A stretch of DNA of 64,000 nucleotides from Nymphaea colorata (lineage: Eukaryota; Streptophyta; Magnoliopsida; Nymphaeales; Nymphaeaceae), in NCBI RefSeq assembly GCF_008831285.2, contig NC_045147.1, positions 16,532,854 to 16,596,853 of the forward strand, in the 5' to 3' direction. Within the stretch, counting starts at the first letter, position 1, and every line of letters starts with the position of its first letter. Positions 19,814-36,300 of this stretch are shown piece after piece. The position numbers and the translations under genes were made by a program. The notes beneath the pieces are model-generated. The model was not told where the DNA came from, did not search any database, and saw only the letters and a list, made by a program, of their open reading frames with translations.

Positions 19814-20290
19814 ATGGTGAAAGGAGAGGTCAGTCACGGCGGCAGTGGAAGTGCGGAGTTGAAGCGCAAGCGGGCGGAGAAGTGCGCCTTGTACCTGACG
19901 CGGTTGCGGAGAAGCCATTCTGGTTTGAAAAGGCAATGGTCGTCGCCGGTGGCATCGGTGGTGTGCCATGGCCGCTGGTGCATTTGTCGCTCTGGCAAGT
20001 TCCTGACAAACAACTATATGAACTTCCACAAGAGCGGGCTGCCCAGGCGGATCATGTTCTTCTCGCAAGGGGAGTGGCGCGATTTCCCTGCTCATGTCAC
20101 CGGTCCCCTTGCAAATGCCTTCTTCAGTAAGACATCCGCTTTGGTGGTGGTGCTGGATGGGCGTCCCTGCCTCGTCGATTTTTCTGGCATGATCCTGCTT
20201 GATTTGAGAAGCGGGTTGGCGCAATCCATTGCATGGATTGACGAATCGGAACGATGCTTCTTTCCAATGTTTACCTTTGATTGTAGTGAG
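19814..20290 (+). CDS. RCD1/SRO-like protein, 5' part with WWE domain, cut by a copia element
   Basis: First part of a plant RCD1/SRO (similar to RCD ONE) gene, a family of nuclear stress-signalling proteins that bind transcription factors. From the ATG at 19814 the protein has a basic KRKRAEK segment near residue 18, as in RCD1, then a WWE domain from about residue 80 (GEWRDFP, a VVVLDGRPCLVDF core, ending AWIDESERCFFP). An in-frame ATG at 19775 is an alternative start. The frame is broken at 20290 by the LTR retrotransposon: read into the LTR it adds four codons and stops at 20306-20308. After removing the element and one copy of the GTGAG duplication, it continues in frame into 25275. As it stands, this half can encode only a WWE protein without PARP or RST domains. 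Confidence 0.85.
20286..20290. repeat. Target-site duplication GTGAG, left copy
   Basis: Five bases GTGAG directly precede the left LTR and are repeated at 25270-25274 directly after the right LTR. This fixes the element borders and marks a clean integrase-mediated insertion. Confidence 0.97.
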
Positions 20291-20663
20291 TATAGAAAAA
20301 CAGAGTAGGAGCAGAGCAAACACAAAATATAACGTGGTTCAGCTTAAGAAAGCCTACGTCCACGGTGAGAAAACACGCCAAGAGAGTTCCTTTTTTTTTA
20401 TTAATTAGTACAGATGGCGTGAAGGGTATATATAGCGTTAAGGATCTACGCTATAAGGCAGTTTTCTACTGCCTTTGTTACAAAAGATTTCTTCCTTGTC
20501 CTGCCAAGATTTGGTTTCCTTGTTTTCAGAATTTTCCCTTATCGCTGTGATAGTTGCAACAACATCGTTGCCATCTTTATTGCTAACCAAAAGATTAGGA
20601 CGTTGGCTGTTATGTAACTGATCTTCTCTATCTGTGATGATCTCCTTTCCATAATTGCTAACA
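20291..20663 (-). repeat. 3' LTR of the copia element
   Basis: This is 373 bp, matching 24897-25269 except for two substitutions. In element orientation it starts TGTTAGCAATTATGG and ends TTTTTCTATA. It is bordered by the polypurine tract on the inside and by the GTGAG duplication on the outside. Confidence 0.97.
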
Positions 20664-23413
20664 CTCCCCTTCAAACTAGGCCGTGGAACAAGGCCGAGTT
20701 TGTTTCGTAAGTTGTTGAAGACTTGCTTGGCTAGACTTTTGGTAAAGACGTCCGCAATCTGATTTTTGGAACAGATAAATTTTGTTGCAAGCTGTTTTTG
20801 AGCAACACGTTCTCGAACATAGTGAAAATCAATTTGAATGTGCTTGCTTCTTCCATGAGCTACAGGGTTTGCTGCCATAAAGAGGGAACTTTTATTATCA
20901 CAATATAGCAAGAGAACCTTATCTATTCGAATCCCTATGTCTTTCATTAGGAACTGAACCCATGTAAGCTCTGCTGCTGTCGACGCCATAGCTCGGTACT
21001 CAGCCTCAGCACTGGATCGAGAAACAGTATTTTGTTTCTTGGCACTCCAAGTAATGCAATTAGCACCAAGGTATATACAGAAACCGGTGGTTGAGCGTCT
21101 GGTATGGGAGCAACCTGCCCAATCTGAATCTGAAAAGGCATATATATCCAAGGTACTTTGCTTCAAAATTTGAAGCCCAAAATGTAGAGTTCCTTTCACA
21201 TAACGCAAAATACGTTTAACCATTTGAAAGTGAGAGTGTAACGGGGCATGCATAAATTGGCTGATGTAATTGACGGCAAACGAGATGTCCGGACGAGTAA
21301 GACAAAGATACTGAAGTGAACCAACAACTTGCCTGTAGAAGGTAACATCATCAAAAGTCTTATCTTCTGCTTGTAGTTTATGTATTTTTGTACTCATAGG
21401 AGTATTACAAGGCTTAGAGTCTTCCATCTTAGCCTTTTCCAAAATATCCTTTGCATACTTTGTTTGACAAAGTATGAGGCCCTGATTTGTCCAAGCAACT
21501 TCAACGCCTAAAAAATAAGTTAGGCGACCAAGATCCTTAACAGGAAACTCACTGCAGAAAGTATCAACGAATTTTTGCAAGGCTAAAGAGCAGCTTCCCG
21601 TTAGAATCATATCATCAACATATATTAAAAGTATGAGAGTAACAGGTCCTTGATGCAAGGTGAACATGGAGGGATCGGCAAAACTGATAGAAAACCCATA
21701 ATCAAGGAGAAAAGTACTTAACCTGGCATACCATGCTCGTGACGCCTGCTTCAAACCATATAAGGCTCGCTGTAATTTGCAGACATGATCAGGTTTGGAT
21801 TCATCTATGTATCCAGGGGGTTGCCGCATGTACACGTCTTCACGAATCATCCCATGCAAGAAAGCATTTTTAATATCCAGCTGTCTAAGAGCCCATCCTT
21901 TAACAAGAGCAACAGTGATAACCATTCGAACCGTGGTTTGTCGCACAACCGGAGAAAAAGTCTCATGAAAATCTATACCCTCTTTTTGAGAGAATCCCCG
22001 AGCAACAAGTCTGGCCTTCAGTTTGTCTAGGGTCCCGTCGGATTTTAACTTGGTTTTAAACACCCATTTGGATCCAACCAAGTTCATCGTGTGGTCATAA
22101 GGAACTAAAACCCAAGTTCTATTTTCAATGAGAGCCTTCATCTCATCGTCCATAGCTTTCTTCCATCCAGCGTGATGCAAAGCTTGATTGACATTAGTGG
22201 GTTCTTTGGGAATGTTCTCATATAAGATATGAAGATTAGCATACCTTGGATTAGGTTTATATGTCCCCACCATAGATCTGGTGGTCATGGTTCTCACAGG
22301 ACTAGCGATAGAATCCATAGAAGTCTGAGTTGGAACATTTGCTTCAGGGCATGCAAGGTGGTCTGTCTCCAGTGGCACATTATTGACGTCCTCATGTTGA
22401 TCCATATGAGTAGACCTATCTGAACTTATATGATTGACTGCTGGCTGTTCTTGGACAGTGTCAAGAGGCGTTCCAGCACAAGACTGTATGAGAATGTCTT
22501 GAGAGTGGCCAGCATTTTGTTCATAAATAGTAGGCTGATCATCAACTACGGTGGATGGGGAATGTGCCACTGATTTTTGACTGTGTGAATCATGCAACTC
22601 AGTCCATTCATCAAAAGAAATTAAATCCGGAGTTAGTCCATGTCCATCATATAATTTTGCAGGATTCTTATATGGAAAATACTGTTCATCAAAGCAAACA
22701 TGACGAGAAACAAAAATCTTCCCTGTTCCTGGATACATGCAGCGGTATCCTTTATGATGTATACTATAGCCAAGAAAGATACACGGAAGGGATCTGGGCT
22801 CAAGTTTATCCTTTGCATAATCCCTTAAGTATGGAAAGCAACGACAACCAAAAATGCGCAGGAAATCATATTTAGGTTGCCGACCAAAAAATTTCAGGTA
22901 TGGCGAATCCATATTCAAGGAGGATGAAGGCAGACGATTTATGAGAAAAACTGCACTGCTGAATGCTTCGAACCAAAAACGTTTAGGAACTCCAGAATGA
23001 AAAAGCATAGTCAAGCCTAACTCAGTAATATTTCGATGTTTTCTTTCGGCCATGCCGTTTTGCTGTTTCGTATGAGCACAGGAAAATTGTTGTTTGATGC
23101 CAAGACTGCCCAAAAGTTGAGTAAATTTTGAACTAGTGTATTCTCCTCCCATGTCTGATTGAAAAATTTTTATTCTTGTATTGAACTGAGTTTCGACAAA
23201 TGTACGAAAGTGATCAAAACAATCAAAAAATTCAGACTTGCATTTTAATGGATACAACCATGTAAATCGTGACCACTCGTCAATGAAAATAACATAATAG
23301 CGATACCCAAGATGCGACGCAATAGGTGCCGGTCCCCATAAGTCAGAATGAATTTTTCCAAAAACTTCCATAGCACTATTATCTCTTTCAAGAAACGGAA
23401 GTTTACATGCACG
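20438..23413 (-). CDS. copia pol: integrase core, reverse transcriptase, RNase H
   Basis: The frame is open from 23413, with a first ATG at 23371, and runs 977 codons from that ATG. Counting from the ATG, the integrase core has D10, D73 and E109 (D-x62-D-x35-E, with QSDMGGEY and NGMAERKHR). The RT domain spans about 400-650 with QLDIKNAFLHG near 497-507 and the YVDD catalytic box at 584-587. RNase H follows (SDSDWAGC, then SSAEAEYRAMA). The N-terminus lacks the integrase CxxC zinc-binding half and is out of frame with the gag part, so it should belong to a single gag-pol polyprotein broken by a deletion near 23405-23415. The C-terminal 75 or so codons are read from the polypurine tract and the 3' LTR before a stop at 20438. 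Confidence 0.93.
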   Translation of the reverse strand, partial: RACKLPFLERDNSAMEVFGKIHSDLWGPAPIASHLGYRYYVIFIDEWSRFTWLYPLKCKSEFFDCFDHFRTFVETQFNTRIKIFQSDMGGEYTSSKFTQLLGSLGIKQQFSCAHTKQQNGMAERKHRNITELGLTMLFHSGVPKRFWFEAFSSAVFLINRLPSSSLNMDSPYLKFFGRQPKYDFLRIFGCRCFPYLRDYAKDKLEPRSLPCIFLGYSIHHKGYRCMYPGTGKIFVSRHVCFDEQYFPYKNPAKLYDGHGLTPDLISFDEWTELHDSHSQKSVAHSPSTVVDDQPTIYEQNAGHSQDILIQSCAGTPLDTVQEQPAVNHISSDRSTHMDQHEDVNNVPLETDHLACPEANVPTQTSMDSIASPVRTMTTRSMVGTYKPNPRYANLHILYENIPKEPTNVNQALHHAGWKKAMDDEMKALIENRTWVLVPYDHTMNLVGSKWVFKTKLKSDGTLDKLKARLVARGFSQKEGIDFHETFSPVVRQTTVRMVITVALVKGWALRQLDIKNAFLHGMIREDVYMRQPPGYIDESKPDHVCKLQRALYGLKQASRAWYARLSTFLLDYGFSISFADPSMFTLHQGPVTLILLIYVDDMILTGSCSLALQKFVDTFCSEFPVKDLGRLTYFLGVEVAWTNQGLILCQTKYAKDILEKAKMEDSKPCNTPMSTKIHKLQAEDKTFDDVTFYRQVVGSLQYLCLTRPDISFAVNYISQFMHAPLHSHFQMVKRILRYVKGTLHFGLQILKQSTLDIYAFSDSDWAGCSHTRRSTTGFCIYLGANCITWSAKKQNTVSRSSAEAEYRAMASTAAELTWVQFLMKDIGIRIDKVLLLYCDNKSSLFMAANPVAHGRSKHIQIDFHYVRERVAQKQLATKFICSKNQIADVFTKSLAKQVFNNLRNKLGLVPRPSLKGSVSNYGKEIITDREDQLHNSQRPNLLVSNKDGNDVVATITAIRENSENKETKSWQDKEEIFCNKGSRKLPYSVDP
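20664..20675 (-). other. Polypurine tract of the copia element
   Basis: In element orientation TTTGAAGGGGAG lies immediately inside the 3' LTR. This is the expected primer site for plus-strand DNA synthesis. Confidence 0.85.
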
Positions 23414-24879
23414 TCAATTAAATTATTTTGATGAAGGTACTTGATGACGCCAAAATGCGGATGACCAAGCCTGGAGTGCCAAAAATCAGCAGAAACACGC
23501 CTAAATCTGGATGAAAAGAAAGCTTCATGGAAATGACTAGAATCTTTAACGGTGCCATTAGAATCTCCAATGACGTAAACTCCATCTTTCTTACTGCCTT
23601 GCGCCACTGTCTTGCCCGTTCTCCTGTCCTTTAAGCAGCAAGATGAAGAGGAAAACTCAAAGGTATAAGGTAAATCTGTAGTTATTTGACTTACGGACAA
23701 CAAATTTTTCTTCAATTGAGGAACGTATAACACTTTAGAGAGAGGAATATAAGAACCATGAACGACCAAATTTCCTTGACCAGTATGAGTTATGGGCAGA
23801 GATTTACCATTTCCAATAATCACACGATCAGAACCATGATAAATAGATTTGTTAGAAATCTTACCCGCATCGCCAGTCATGTGGCTGGAGGCTCTCGAGT
23901 CAGCTAACCATTCAGCGTTGTTTCCATCATCAAGAGATAGAGCAGTCATGGCTTGTTGAGCATCTTCTGCTTGATAACCATGATTGAAACGTTCAAAGCA
24001 CTTAATAGCGGAATGATATTTTTTTCCGCATATTTGACAAACAACAGCACTTTTGTTTTTCTTATCATCAGATTTGGGAAAGTGGGAATCGTTGATTTGA
24101 AACTGATTGTAATTGCGTCCTCTATTATGATTGTAGTTGCGACCGCGACCGCGCCCGCGACCATGACTATGGTTAGGTTGACGTTGATTCACCATAGCCA
24201 TAAGAGGAGGCGTGGGACTTTTGAGGCGAGTGTCAAAACTTTGAAGGAGTGGAACAACTTCTTCATAGGATGGAGCAGGAGGTCGAATCATGGCAGCGAC
24301 AAAGGCTTCATATCCATCACCAAGTCCTTGGAGCAGCCAATAAACTCGCGCCCCATCATCAACAGGTTTCCCAATGGCAGCAAGATCATCACAGATTGCT
24401 TTGGATTTGTTGATGTATTCATCAACAGAATCATCACCCTTTTTGAGAGACGTAAGCAAATGAGTTAGGTGAAACTCTCTCTCTCTCGACTTGCGAGAGT
24501 AGGCATCCATAAGAGAGCTCCAAATGTCCCTTGATGTCTCTTGACCAACAACTCGACCAAGAGCACTTTCAGTCAAGGTACTGATTATCCATCCCTTGAC
24601 GAGGCGATCTGATTTCTTCCAAGCTGTGAACTGGGGATTAACAGTCCTTTTCTGGCCTAAAGGATCAGCTGCATCAATGACGAATTCAGCAGGAGCAACA
24701 ACGTCTCCAGTGAGAAAGCCTTGAAGATCTTGGCTTTCAATAAGAGCGAGAATCTGTGTCTTCCATAAAAGAAAGTTCTCTGGTCGCAGCTTAAGAGAAA
24801 CAAAGTTGGAGACGTTGATAGAATAAGGATAAGGATAAGAAATCTGTACCAGCGTGGAGGAAGATGAAATAGATGCCAT
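23245..24879 (-). CDS. copia gag, protease and start of integrase (frame-shifted)
   Basis: I start at the ATG at 24879 (MASISSSS), just inside the primer site; an in-frame ATG further out lies in the LTR. The first 250 or so residues are a UBN2/copia-type Gag. A glycine- and arginine-rich stretch (GRGRGRNYNHNRGRN) and a CCHC zinc knuckle follow (CQICGKKYHSAIKC, C-x2-C-x4-H-x4-C). The protease motif reads WLADSRASSHMT where copia elements have DSGA, with the arginine codon at 23893-23895. A GAG-pre-integrase segment (FWHSRLGHP) then begins. After about NNLIDVH the frame runs into non-homologous sequence and stops at 23245, because of an apparent deletion and frameshift. A native single gag-pol frame is expected in this family. 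Confidence 0.92.
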   Translation of the reverse strand: MASISSSSTLVQISYPYPYSINVSNFVSLKLRPENFLLWKTQILALIESQDLQGFLTGDVVAPAEFVIDAADPLGQKRTVNPQFTAWKKSDRLVKGWIISTLTESALGRVVGQETSRDIWSSLMDAYSRKSREREFHLTHLLTSLKKGDDSVDEYINKSKAICDDLAAIGKPVDDGARVYWLLQGLGDGYEAFVAAMIRPPAPSYEEVVPLLQSFDTRLKSPTPPLMAMVNQRQPNHSHGRGRGRGRNYNHNRGRNYNQFQINDSHFPKSDDKKNKSAVVCQICGKKYHSAIKCFERFNHGYQAEDAQQAMTALSLDDGNNAEWLADSRASSHMTGDAGKISNKSIYHGSDRVIIGNGKSLPITHTGQGNLVVHGSYIPLSKVLYVPQLKKNLLSVSQITTDLPYTFEFSSSSCCLKDRRTGKTVAQGSKKDGVYVIGDSNGTVKDSSHFHEAFFSSRFRRVSADFWHSRLGHPHFGVIKYLHQNNLIDVHVNFRFLKEIIVLWKFLEKFILTYGDRHLLRRILGIAIMLFSLTSGHDLHGCIH

Positions 24880-24882
24880 CGT

Positions 24883-24896
24883 TGGCTCTGATACCA
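24883..24896 (-). other. Primer binding site, initiator tRNA-Met type
   Basis: In element orientation TGGTATCAGAGCCA follows the 5' LTR with no spacer. It is complementary to the 3' end of plant initiator methionine tRNA, the usual copia primer. Confidence 0.93.
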
Positions 24897-25269
24897 TATA
24901 GAAAAACAGAGTAGGAGCAGAGCAAACACAAAATATAACGTGGTTCAGCTTAAGAAAGCCTACGTCCACGGTGAGAAAACACGCCAAGAGAGTTCCTTTT
25001 CTTTTATTAATTAGTACAGATGGCGTGAAGGGTATATATAGCGTTAAGGATCTACGCTATAAGGCAGTTTTCTACTGCCTTTGTTACAAAAGATTTCTTC
25101 CTTGTCCTGCCAAGATTTGGTTTCCTTGTTTTCAGAATCTTCCCTTATCGCTGTGATAGTTGCAACAACATCGTTGCCATCTTTATTGCTAACCAAAAGA
25201 TTAGGACGTTGGCTGTTATGTAACTGATCTTCTCTATCTGTGATGATCTCCTTTCCATAATTGCTAACA
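24897..25269 (-). repeat. 5' LTR of the copia element
   Basis: This 373-bp LTR carries the element promoter. In element orientation a CTATATATACC TATA-like box lies at about 25031-25041. The outer border is fixed by GTGAG at 25270-25274 and the inner border by the adjacent tRNA primer site. Transcription would run away from the 3' part of the SRO gene, antisense to that gene. Confidence 0.96.
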
Positions 25270-25274
25270 GTGAG
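25270..25274. repeat. Target-site duplication GTGAG, right copy
   Basis: Exact repeat of 20286-20290, directly flanking the right LTR. Confidence 0.97.
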
Positions 25275-27236
25275 AACGAGAACAGAGGGAACGGCGAAAA
25301 CATGAAGGTCGCAGATAGACCAACACTTGAGGCGGAATTTAAAAGTGCTGTCAACGGAACAGATCGTTCAAAGACAGCGGATGAGAATCACGTCCGAGTT
25401 TCATATACAAGGGTTGTAACCATTCAGCAGGGAGGCAAGAATGGTGGCTTTGATCGGGTTCTTGGTCCCAGTTCAAAATGCAATGGAGAAATGAAAGAAC
25501 TAATTGGTGAAGGCGGTGAGTTGCCGCCCAAGGATGGAGCTTGTGGATGACAGCCGTCCAGTTTGAGGGATGGGGCTCCATTATATCCCGGGTCGGGGGC
25601 CCTGCGTGATACGGTACAGGCATTAGATAGAGGTTCAAGTGATTATATTCGTGTCCGTAACATATTTCTTATCGGAATGGGAACGCTCGTTACAGCTGCT
25701 GATATAGTGGGGATCTATCGGTATTCTCCCACTTGTATATTAGCGCAGAAACGGGTAAAGTTATTTGAGGACTCAATTCAGTTTGTGAAAGGTTACCGTG
25801 GAGATGCAAACGTTCGATATGCATGGTATGGTTCTGGGATAGAAGGTATTCTCGAGGTTATGCTTCATGGCTTCGGAAGAATTCGTAAGCCAGCGAATGG
25901 AGTGGCTTATGGGAGCAGGGTATATCTTTCGCCGTATGAATGCTCTCATATCAGGTTTCTATTTTTTCCTTTTAACAATGCTACAGTCGTGTTTCTACGT
26001 TCCTGGTTGTTGCATTCTGATAACTCTTTGACAAGAAGTCTTCGTGAATTGCTTATGTGCTGAAAGATGTCTATTTTCTATTTCAAATGCTTGCTTACAG
26101 CTCTAGTTATTCGGACGTTGACGAAATTGGCATGCCACACATGGTCTTATGTCGTGTGATAATGGGAAATATGGAAAAGACCCCTTTTGGCTCCGAGCAA
26201 TTCCATCCTAGCAGTGAAAGATTTGACAGTGGTGTGGATGATCTTAGTAATCCCAAGCACTATGTCGTTTGGGGCACTGACATGAACATACACATACTTC
26301 CGGACTATGTTTTGAGCTTTAAGATACCCCCTGTTGCCCAAGGTAATCTGGTCTCACCAATATGGTTGAATGTTTGTATGCATTTTATTAAGTTTTTCAG
26401 CTTCATGATCATTCAGATGCTGATCTCCTTTTTCTGCATTACCTTAGTCTTTCTAAAATATTCAGAGACTCGCACTGAACTGAAGGGAAGGCATAGCAAG
26501 ATTGGGTCAGCGACAGTTACAGATTCCCAACCCCCTGACGTACAAAGCAAATCGTCATACGTTCTAATTTGGTAAGAGCGGACATTCTGAACCTCAATCA
26601 GTAAAAACCATTGTTTCTTTAACATCCCGGTATTAAAGTTTGTCCATGTACTGAATGGGATCCAATCACTTCCCAATTAATGGACCATGATTTATGGTTG
26701 TGTCATTTGGTGGCTTACCATGAAAAGATACCTGATGTATTTTGTAGATAAAGGCATCCGTGTTTTATGACTGTACCACGTTCATAGTAGATAAGACAAG
26801 TTTCTTTTGCTTATCTTTAGGCCACATATGGACAATAGCTCTCCAACGTTCTCAGAGTGGCCAGCAAAATATACAGACAAATCTCCTGGAGATGGCGTTG
26901 AATCCAAGTTCCATTAGACTACCATTTGTGCTACTGATTGCTGCAACTAAGAAGTATGTATATGCAGATGCCAAGAAGCAACTTGATTATTACGTTGGAG
27001 AGTTCGAGGTTTGAAAATTTTGAAAGTTTAATTGACTTTCATGTTGTATTTTGAACATTGGTCATATGTTATATGTTGGTTTCTGCCAGGAGAAAAGGCT
27101 GACCAGAGAGGATGTAGTTAAAAAGTTTAGGCTGATTGTTGGGGACGGCCTGCTTATGAACATCTTGCAAAAGTGGCAAAAACTTGAGGTTTGTACCAAA
27201 AAGGTTTCTCGAACTTGTCTTGTTAATGCACGGTGA
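25275..27236 (+). CDS. RCD1/SRO-like protein, 3' part with PARP-like and RST domains
   Basis: Continuation of the SRO gene beyond the copia element. The frame from 25275 fits the upstream half. A TGA at 25548-25550 is in this frame unless a candidate 111-bp intron (25516-25626, GTGAGT...TTAG) is removed; that splice keeps frame. The PARP-like domain lies in exons 25627-25954 and 26101-26342 (RGDANVRYAWYGSG, GSRVYLSPYECS, SSERFDSGVDDLSNPKHYVVW). The canonical PARP histidine position appears as tyrosine (WYGS), consistent with the enzymatically inactive SRO type. A further exon is 26466-26571. The RST domain lies in exons ending at 27008 and starting at 27090 (EKRLTREDVVKKFRLIVGDGLL). The last exon is open to a stop at 27234-27236, or a donor at 27189 may be used. 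The 26571 exon and an RST exon starting at 26821 do not agree in phase; an acceptor at 26857 would. Confidence 0.8.
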
Positions 27237-33373: not shown

Positions 33374-36300
33374 ATGGCGGAGACCGAGAGAGAGCGGGAT
33401 CGCCTCATTCTCCGGGACTTCGTCTCCCTCGATCTCTGTAAGGTAAACTTCCCGTTTTCTCCATTTCTTCACAGAATGATAGAGGAACTAGGGCGGGGTT
33501 TGGATCATCTCGTTCCTTCTTCTATCGTCTTGATCACCATTGTTGGCGCTTGGCAGGAACTCGAGTTCATACACAAGAGCTGCGGAACAATCGGTTATAG
33601 AGACAACGTGCTGTCGACGACTCTGCCTCACCTGATCGCCACTGGCTGCGGTCACCTCATCATGCCCTTCGTTGCTATCCGAGGCGCGTGATTTCATGTT
33701 TTCCTTAAGCTGCTTTCCCTTTTCCTGTTTCTGTTTCACTCCTGAACTTTTCTCATTTTTTGTTATTTGACGAAATGGAGATCGAATGGCAGAGAGGTTG
33801 AAAGAGAAGGTGGAGGAGTTCTTCGGTTGTGAATACGAGCTTTTTATAGAATTCACGGGTTTGATCAGGTGTCTCCTTCTGTTCCTCCGTATTCATGGAC
33901 TAGTGTTCGTTTCCTTTTTCTTAATGTTGAGAAAAGTTATCTTTTTTATTCTAAAATCGATATTGAGGGCCACATGTCAATTATGTGTTCACCTCTACAA
34001 GTAAGCAAAGCACCTCAGACTCAAGATATCTATCCATATATATGGGCGTTACCGAAGTGATGCTGGCATCTCGAATTTGACTCAATAAAACGCTTGAAAC
34101 AGATAGTAGAGCCTACGCTTGCCTCTACAAGTGCATACTCTTAAGACTAGTCAGGCCCGAGTATATAAGCAAGCACGCATCTTCACATAGACAAAGACAC
34201 CGACGTTGTGATAGATTCAATCCTGTCTGAACAATTTTTACATAATCAAGTTTTCTTTGCCTGTGAGCTGCCTAACATTATGATATTTAAAAACATTTCG
34301 TGCATGCTCACTCTGGCATTGGGAAGTAAAGTTAAGTCTGCATGGCTAGGTTTGTCTCAACGACCGTCTACTAAGGCATTACGAAGCAAGCTTAGCTAAA
34401 TTTCTTGAACGCATGCACGCTTGTATGAATGGACTTGCTTCGCAATGGCACTCAAGTAGACATTCTATCTTATCGATAGGGGTGAACATGAGCTGAATTT
34501 GAGCTGAGTGGGGCTGGCTCCATCCCAGCTCGAGCTTGGCTTGGACGAGTTCCAGGAAACTCAAACTTGGCTCGGATAATAAGCTCAAATTGACCATAAG
34601 TTGAGCCATTCCACAAGCTGAGCTGCACCAAGCCTGATAAAAAGGTGAAGTTTTTTTTTAAGAGAAAATGGCACCTGTGAGATTTGAAACTGGCGGCTAA
34701 GCCAAGAGGTACTTTTAAATTTTAATATAGCAACTACAAACAGGATAACAAATATATTAAATGGATGAAAGACAAGTTTTTAGATCATATATGTAACACC
34801 CCAGATGTTTAGTCCCGTATCGAAGATTGTGAGGGATCTTCAAGGGCTTATAAATGGAGGCTTTAATGAGATGATTGTCCTGGTTCCTAGCCTTTTTAGG
34901 ATTGGAACCGAAACTGCTAGGGGGCGGGTTGGGATCCGCCAGACCAGGGGCCCGAGCCCGGGAGTGGGTCGGGTTGTTATAATGGTATCAGAGCAGTTTC
35001 AACACTCGGACCTAGGGTCCCACACGCGCGGACGCGTGTGCCTTAAGGGGGGTGGATTGTAACACCCCAGATGTTTAGTCCCGTATCGAAGATTGTGAGG
35101 GATCTTCAAGGGCTTATAAATGGAGGCTTTAATGAGATGATTGTCCTGGTTCCTAGCCTTTTTAGGATTGGAACCGAAACTGCTAGGGGGCGGGTTGGGA
35201 TCCGCCAGACCAGGGGCCCGAGCCCGGGAGTGGGTCGGGTTGTTATAAGTGTTACAGAACCAAAGCATGCATCGCCATGCTTAATGAACATATGGACACT
35301 TGCAACATGTTATTCAACTCACGTTAATGATTCATGAGTTTCAGTTTCTTGGACTAAATGAAGGGAAAAAAGCCTTATCTGGCAGGTGTTCACCTTCATA
35401 GCAAGTTAACTTTGTCAGAATAGACAAAATTATACAAAAGCAGGTCAATATAATTAAGCTGATCTATGTGAGTGCAAGCAGGCATACTGACAGAGGAAAA
35501 CATGTTTGTGTATACTTTTATGTGATTAATATTAACTGGAGATTTTGTTTTCTCTTTTCTTGAGTGATAGTATAAAATGAGTCTGTTAAACTCATCTTAG
35601 TTTTTGTAATTAAGTGGGAAAGTTGTTGAATAGTGAGCATTCAGTCAGGGCTTCTTTAGTGTTTGGTTATGAAAATTCTCATATTTTGATTCTGTGTCTT
35701 TGTCAAGTTTGTGCATCAAAGCATGTGTGTTCTAGTTTAATGAAGGTTCAACCATTGAGTTAGAACAAATTATGATTGTGAAACTTTGAGTTGGACTATC
35801 AGATTATGAGCATGAGAAATCTGGCGAAACTGGTTGGACAGAGATTGAGCTACTTGGTGGTGAAAGTTAAGAAGTAACTCCAGTATTCATTTTGAGATGA
35901 CATTAATACTGGTAATGATGCCACATGAAGGTCAACAAATACAAAAGGTTGATTGAGAGTCTTAGACAAAGAATATGGCATGGAAGCCATGGAGGCCTTT
36001 GACATCAGGTGGTTACCAGTTGACCATGGCATCATGCATATAGAAGTGCTGCTGGTTCCCTAATATTTCATTAAAAGATATGTTTCACCATCCAGGCATC
36101 CACTACCGTCTACCGTTTACTTGGATTGATTCTTACTGTATCAACTGGATCCCATAACTTTTTTTTTGGTCAACAAACTGTTTGTGCCTTCCTTTCTGCA
36201 ATCTCATGGGTTATGTATTTATGTTGATTTGAGGATGACATTCCATAATTGGTGCTAGAGCTTGTTTACCACAAATCAATCTAAAAAAAAAAATTGTTCT

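Follow-up and report, generated by a model that had tools for sequence, protein, structure and literature searches.

The interrupted SRO gene

A 64-kb stretch of the Nymphaea colorata assembly (C10:16532854-16596853), referred to here as the window, carries on its forward strand a gene of the SRO/RCD1 family, and the large first coding exon of this gene is occupied by an LTR retrotransposon. Sequence searches covered 407,766,735 bases in 783 contigs of the assembly, and scans of the 64-kb window for tRNA genes and Rfam families returned no match at the thresholds used. The features of the locus are given below in window positions, with reference to a paralogue on C8.

19814-20290, plus strand: SRO exon A, left piece, with the start codon (placed by homology), the WWE domain and the start of the linker
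About 20024-20263, plus strand: WWE match (Pfam), codons 71-150
20286-20290: target-site duplication GTGAG, left copy, reading GTGAGT with the first LTR base
20291-25269, minus strand: Ty1/copia LTR retrotransposon, 4,979 bp, antisense to the SRO gene
20291-20663, minus strand: 3' LTR, 373 bp
20438-23413, minus strand: open frame of 991 codons with integrase core, SH3-like and RVT_2 in that order, continuing into the LTR
23245-25056, minus strand: open frame of 603 codons with copia gag, Pol_BBD and gag-pre-integrase
24897-25269, minus strand: 5' LTR, 373 bp
25270-25274: target-site duplication GTGAG, right copy
25275-25954, plus strand: SRO exon A, right piece, with linker and start of the PARP-like domain; a GT donor at its end matches the place of the C8 donor
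25548-25550, plus strand: in-frame TGA within the linker, upstream of PARP; the corresponding codon of C8 is a sense codon
26101-26342, plus strand: SRO exon B, remainder of the PARP-like domain
26466-26571, plus strand: SRO exon C, assigned by position and poorly conserved (106 nt, against 110 in C8)
26877-27008, plus strand: SRO exon D, first part of RST, with a C8-like acceptor at 26877
27090-27236, plus strand: SRO exon E, end of RST; gene end as set in an earlier note on this DNA

There are further in-frame ATGs upstream of the start codon at 19814. The SRO frame reads ...FTFDCSE up to 20290, enters the LTR and ends at a TAG (20306-20308), giving a reading frame of 164 residues, and the SRO sequence is taken up again with NENRGNGEN from 25275. 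The earlier note had described a young copia insertion in an SRO coding exon, with a frame that is continuous once the element and one GTGAG are removed. Both points hold: the 373-bp LTRs differ by two mismatches, the GTGAG duplication is perfect, and the flanks joined at the empty site (...FTFDCSENENRGNGEN...) are open in a single frame. The insertion does lie between WWE and PARP, as the note had it, not exactly at a domain limit but within the linker, nine codons past the WWE match.

The placing of WWE to the left of the element and of PARP-like and RST to its right agrees with Pfam, which gives WWE 94.5 bits (cut-off 24.9) and RST 50.7 bits (cut-off 22.7). Neither PARP piece passes on its own: the first scores 16.3 bits where 26.7 are required, and the second has no match. 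The two pieces are 67% and 70% identical to the C8 paralogue, with which exons B, D and E can be aligned. The RST exon was first read as frame-shifted, a reading that was dropped when the comparison with C8 showed an acceptor (exon start 26877) from which RST is read in frame. When exon C ends at its GTAAGA donor, the RST frame is not kept from this C8-like start of exon D, and among the starts tried it is kept only from 26858 or 26801. The exon C/D junction thus requires an acceptor other than that of C8, and a further frame problem at this place is possible, though unproven.

A type A SRO carries WWE, PARP-like and RST domains in one product; in the window these pieces are present, separated by the element and by the in-frame TGA. 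Their order is that of the type A (group I) SROs RCD1 and SRO1, as described in PMC2848248, from which the window copy differs in being broken at two places and in its diverged RST, whereas the C8 copy is regular.

The copia element and its family

Over the two frames of the element, scanned separately, the Pfam order is Retrotran_gag_2, Pol_BBD, gag_pre-integrs, rve, SH3_retrovirus and RVT_2, and this succession of gag, pre-integrase, integrase, SH3-like and RVT_2 identifies a Ty1/copia element on the minus strand. The 603- and 991-codon frames differ and meet near 23.4 kb, so that gag and pol are split rather than joined in the single frame of an autonomous copy. On the element strand, TGGTATCAGAGCC lies directly after one LTR, at the place of the primer-binding site, and GAAGGGGAG directly before the other, at that of the polypurine tract; we take TGGTATCAGAGCC to be a match to the initiator tRNA-Met. 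The LTR starts with TG on this strand and ends in TA (TATA), the usual LTR end being CA. The two mismatches between the LTRs (2/373) are both transitions, and there are no gaps. With the substitution rates used for dating, 1.3e-8 and 7e-9 per site and year, the LTR difference gives an insertion age of 0.21 My (95% Poisson 0.02-0.74) and 0.38 My (95% Poisson 0.05-1.38), respectively.

A search of the assembly with the LTR gave at least 31 matches. Ten other apparent LTR pairs were examined; outside this set are two apparent pairs, at about 8.36 Mb on C12 and about 5.53 Mb on C13, and a further place on C2 (about 29.15 Mb). Nine of the ten have the same LTR ends as the window element and each has its own perfect 5-bp duplication; the one pair without a duplication (C8 near 3.14 Mb) has different end letters. 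The distance between LTRs is 0 to 0.011 in seven pairs and 0.034 to 0.075 in three, and the family appears to have been active recently. Since nine pairs share these ends and carry duplications of their own, the borders of the window element are not due to chance. They are read from one assembly, which may hold gaps, and could conceivably be an artefact; this is extremely unlikely, as a perfect 5-bp duplication with LTR ends common to nine of ten other pairs speaks for integration and not for a misjoin. Among the matches listed there was also no near-identical second SRO locus, as the other haplotype would be, the next best being 57% identical with the WWE query and 67% with the PARP query.

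As a check of exon preference, the empty site was rebuilt from the flanks of seven other young copies. An open frame of at least 60 codons crosses the join in four of the seven, and none of these four frames reached a Pfam cut-off. Two of the joins, both on C4, are a few bases off, their duplication not having been found by the script, and they account for one (60 codons) of the four frames. In this small sample of seven copies there is no sign that the family prefers coding exons.

A second lesion downstream of the element

A recent knockout by the element was one of the readings offered in the note. The full-length frame is indeed lost in the assembly, but the element is not the sole lesion, the in-frame TGA at 25548-25550 having been overlooked. 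This codon lies upstream of PARP, and therefore even a precise splicing-out of the element would lead to a stop before that domain. There are 35 in-frame GT-AG pairs of 60-400 nt that could skip the TGA; in five of these the donor is the GTGAGT at 25516, and the acceptors lie at 25626-25743, within the PARP region. Skipping of the TGA by splicing is at most possible.

The C8 partner and the duplicated block

The note had called for a search for an intact SRO paralogue, and one is present on C8 (15626259-15623738, minus strand), where an unbroken product of 587 residues can be read with splice borders chosen by eye, and WWE (102 bits), PARP (46.1 bits) and RST (82.3 bits) are all above the Pfam cut-off. 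In all, five other loci match the WWE query, with WWE and PARP matches in open frames of equal length (402, 452, 596, 325 and 360 codons); a single frame with both domains was seen directly for C8, C12 and C1, and is deduced from the equal lengths for C3 and C4. Among these paralogues of the same assembly there is no intron border at the site, as had been supposed, and the target of the insertion was thus exon sequence. One further locus (C9:19175869-19176240), with a 169-codon frame, matches the PARP query and is not listed for the WWE query, and is possibly an SRO without WWE. Group II SROs, which lack WWE, are described as occurring in eudicots and not in monocots or cryptogams (PMC2848248).

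When the window was compared by blastn with a 70-kb stretch of C8 (15590001-15660000), five places matched in inverted order over about 55 kb:

Window 4.1 kb: C8 stretch 62.8 kb, inverted
Window SRO gene (20-26 kb): C8 stretch 36-34 kb, inverted
Window 34.8-35.3 kb: C8 stretch 20.4 kb, inverted
Window 56.1-56.6 kb: C8 stretch 15.1-14.6 kb, inverted
Window 59.4 kb: C8 stretch 9.9 kb, inverted

Of the 12 blastn rows, two (window 32.7 and 50.8 kb) do not fit the collinear order. Judged by these collinear neighbours, the window and C8 copies appear to be a duplicate pair from a large-scale duplication. Their dS is 1.22 (Nei-Gojobori), a rough figure near saturation, which is somewhat above the paralogue KS peak near 0.9 for the Nymphaealean whole-genome duplication (PMC7015852); the duplicate pairs of that event lie in collinear blocks, as here. 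Within the window, 34792-34994 and 35058-35262 both match the same part of the C8 stretch (20.2-20.4 kb) at 80-81%, which suggests a tandem copy.

Selection and rate of change

Between the window and C8 copies, dN/dS is 0.22 in WWE, 0.61 in the linker, 0.15 and 0.13 in the two PARP pieces and 0.52 in RST, or 0.28 overall across 528 codons, with synonymous sites near saturation (pS 0.54-0.64). Branch values of omega were taken from a three-sequence codon model (window, C8 and C12), in which the C12 branch length was at its bound in three of the four fits. On the window branch, omega is 0.12 for PARP and 0.18 for PARP and RST together, and both values reject 1 (LRT 7.91 and 13.09). The values for WWE (0.26, LRT 2.73) and RST (0.52, LRT 0.91) are not different from 1, and the window and C8 branches show no significant difference in any of the four fits (LRT 1.68 for WWE, 0.21 for PARP, 1.32 for RST and 0.00 for PARP and RST).

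Residue changes were counted in columns where only one of the duplicates departs from C12. Changes in the window copy outnumber those in C8 by 20 to 4 in RST (chi2 10.67), 10 to 2 in PARP exon B (chi2 5.33) and 9 to 4 in the first PARP piece; the excess is not significant in WWE (15 to 9, chi2 1.50), and the total, summed by hand, is 54 to 19. Residues common to C8 and C12 have been lost in the window RST (26877-27188), where the 20 window-only changes fall in 74 columns and include the tryptophan of the WMxFP stretch. The overall dN/dS of 0.28 and the rejection of 1 for PARP and RST together show a gene under constraint over a large part of its history. Taken together, the codon model and the residue counts indicate a copy that, in PARP at least, was long constrained and yet is the faster of the two duplicates, most of all in RST. 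The age of the element leaves too little time for so many window-only changes, and we infer that they precede the insertion. This faster change before the insertion, that of RST included, would reflect either relaxed constraint or merely a higher rate, between which the codon model does not settle.

The order of the two lesions

The TGA may have come first, in which case the copy was already dead or truncated and the element fell into a pseudogene. Consistent with this are the presence of a second lesion at all and the excess of change over C8 in RST and PARP exon B, beyond what the age of the element allows. Neutral decay was also simulated over 1,623 coding nt, with indels at a tenth of substitutions, and at the age of the element (K 0.0027) only 35% of runs had at least one disablement, so that the stop may be the older of the two. 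Against it stand the PARP frames, which are otherwise open, the retained splice borders and the low omega of PARP on the window branch. Any earlier death would, moreover, itself be recent. At most one disablement was left in 78% of runs at K 0.005, in 14% at K 0.02 and in only 4% at K 0.03, where K 0.02 to 0.03 corresponds to about 1.5 to 2.3 My at 1.3e-8, and K 0.03 to about 4.3 My at 7e-9. With a single point lesion in the 1,623 nt simulated, the loss of constraint therefore looks recent. A stop that preceded the element is a serious alternative, which we hold tentatively and as the less probable reading.

Possible products of the interrupted gene

The insertion has left potential splice signals at both borders. 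A GT at 20290-20291 (last base of the duplication and first LTR base) and an AG at 25269-25270 (last LTR base and first base of the duplication) enclose a candidate intron of 4,981 nt, the removal of which would add one codon and keep the frame; a second frame-keeping pair is GTGAGT at 20286 with an exon start at 25288. These borders, together with a CTCCTTTCC stretch near the right LTR end, speak for removal of the element from the transcript as an intron. The SRO frame is kept by 13 of 40 nearby GT/AG pairs, about chance for three frames, and each of the 13 resulting products ends between residues 228 and 256, where the TGA upstream of PARP is met, so that splicing-out alone would restore no SRO protein. 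The GCTAAC near the right LTR end is just two bases away from the first AG, a distance too short for a branch point of that AG.

A precedent for such removal is Evelknievel, a copia-like element in exon 13 of Arabidopsis CMT1, for which splicing-out is documented by cDNA, with borders in the duplicated target site and the LTR ends (PMC6238269). As there, a copia LTR element in the window lies in a coding exon of a gene-family member and truncates the product, and the 5-bp target duplication of Evelknievel (GGCTG) has G at both ends, like GTGAG. The cases differ in that splicing was seen in cDNA for CMT1 and is hypothetical for the window gene, in the additional downstream stop of the window gene and, possibly, in orientation, the window element being antisense. 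Furthermore, the 25% of Evelknievel splicing events that restore the frame do so via a GC donor inside the duplication, not a GT (PMC6238269). On balance, removal of the element as an intron is very improbable, and it is marginally more doubtful still that the insertion created, in one step, a working GT-AG intron out of the duplicated target and the LTR ends, and that the gene still makes a spliced WWE-plus-linker protein. The borders nevertheless point to a general rule, by which an LTR element with a T start and an A end on the coding strand, inserted at a 5-bp target of the form GNNNG, would create a GT-AG pair that adds exactly three bases, and hence keep the frame unless the new codon is a stop. 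Such targets are GTGAG in the window, one of nine other targets of the family (GAGTG), and GGCTG.

The truncated left half might instead now be used as a separate WWE protein. The 164-residue frame from 19814 is open, its WWE scores nearly as in C8 (94.5 against 102 bits) and has changed without significant excess over that copy, and the gene strand has two hexamers (AAAATA, AATATA) loosely resembling poly(A) signals at 20324-20331. The other five of the seven hexamers tried, including AATAAA, are absent from the gene strand of 20291-21200, and plant poly(A) signals being loose, this result is weak either way. The insertion is also too recent for any selection on a new product to show, and we regard such a use as unlikely.

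Discussion

The locus very probably records the recent loss of one member of an old duplicate SRO pair. The large first coding exon of a type A SRO gene has received a copia element, in antisense orientation, right after WWE, and a stop codon has arisen separately in the linker before PARP, earlier or later than the element. With splice borders chosen by eye, the C8 partner keeps an unbroken WWE-PARP-RST frame. On this reading, transcripts from the SRO promoter would terminate or be mis-spliced within the element, at most a WWE-only protein of about 164 residues would be encoded, and PARP and RST would be lost. The C8 partner would cover any need, and the loss would be tolerated. We infer that the window gene yields no full-length SRO protein and that C8 compensates. 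The TGA, the collinear unbroken partner and the faster change of RST were absent from the earlier note; with the gene being one of a duplicated pair, the visible consequence that the note had considered is less likely.

In the literature searched, no paper names RCD1 together with Nymphaea, none of the papers listed for SRO and its domains mentions Nymphaea, and a search on SRO with pseudogene and retrotransposon gave no SRO paper among the matches listed. The event is of an ordinary kind, the recent loss of a redundant duplicate, and copia elements in plant exons, even spliced out, are already known. Its value lies in being a clean and datable case of such loss, in which a copia family with recent activity, an insertion into an exon, a further lesion and an unbroken partner in a collinear block are found together. 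Should the insertion allele still be polymorphic, what the loss of a single SRO copy does could be measured directly. The border rule for in-frame intron formation can be tested on LTR elements in exons generally.
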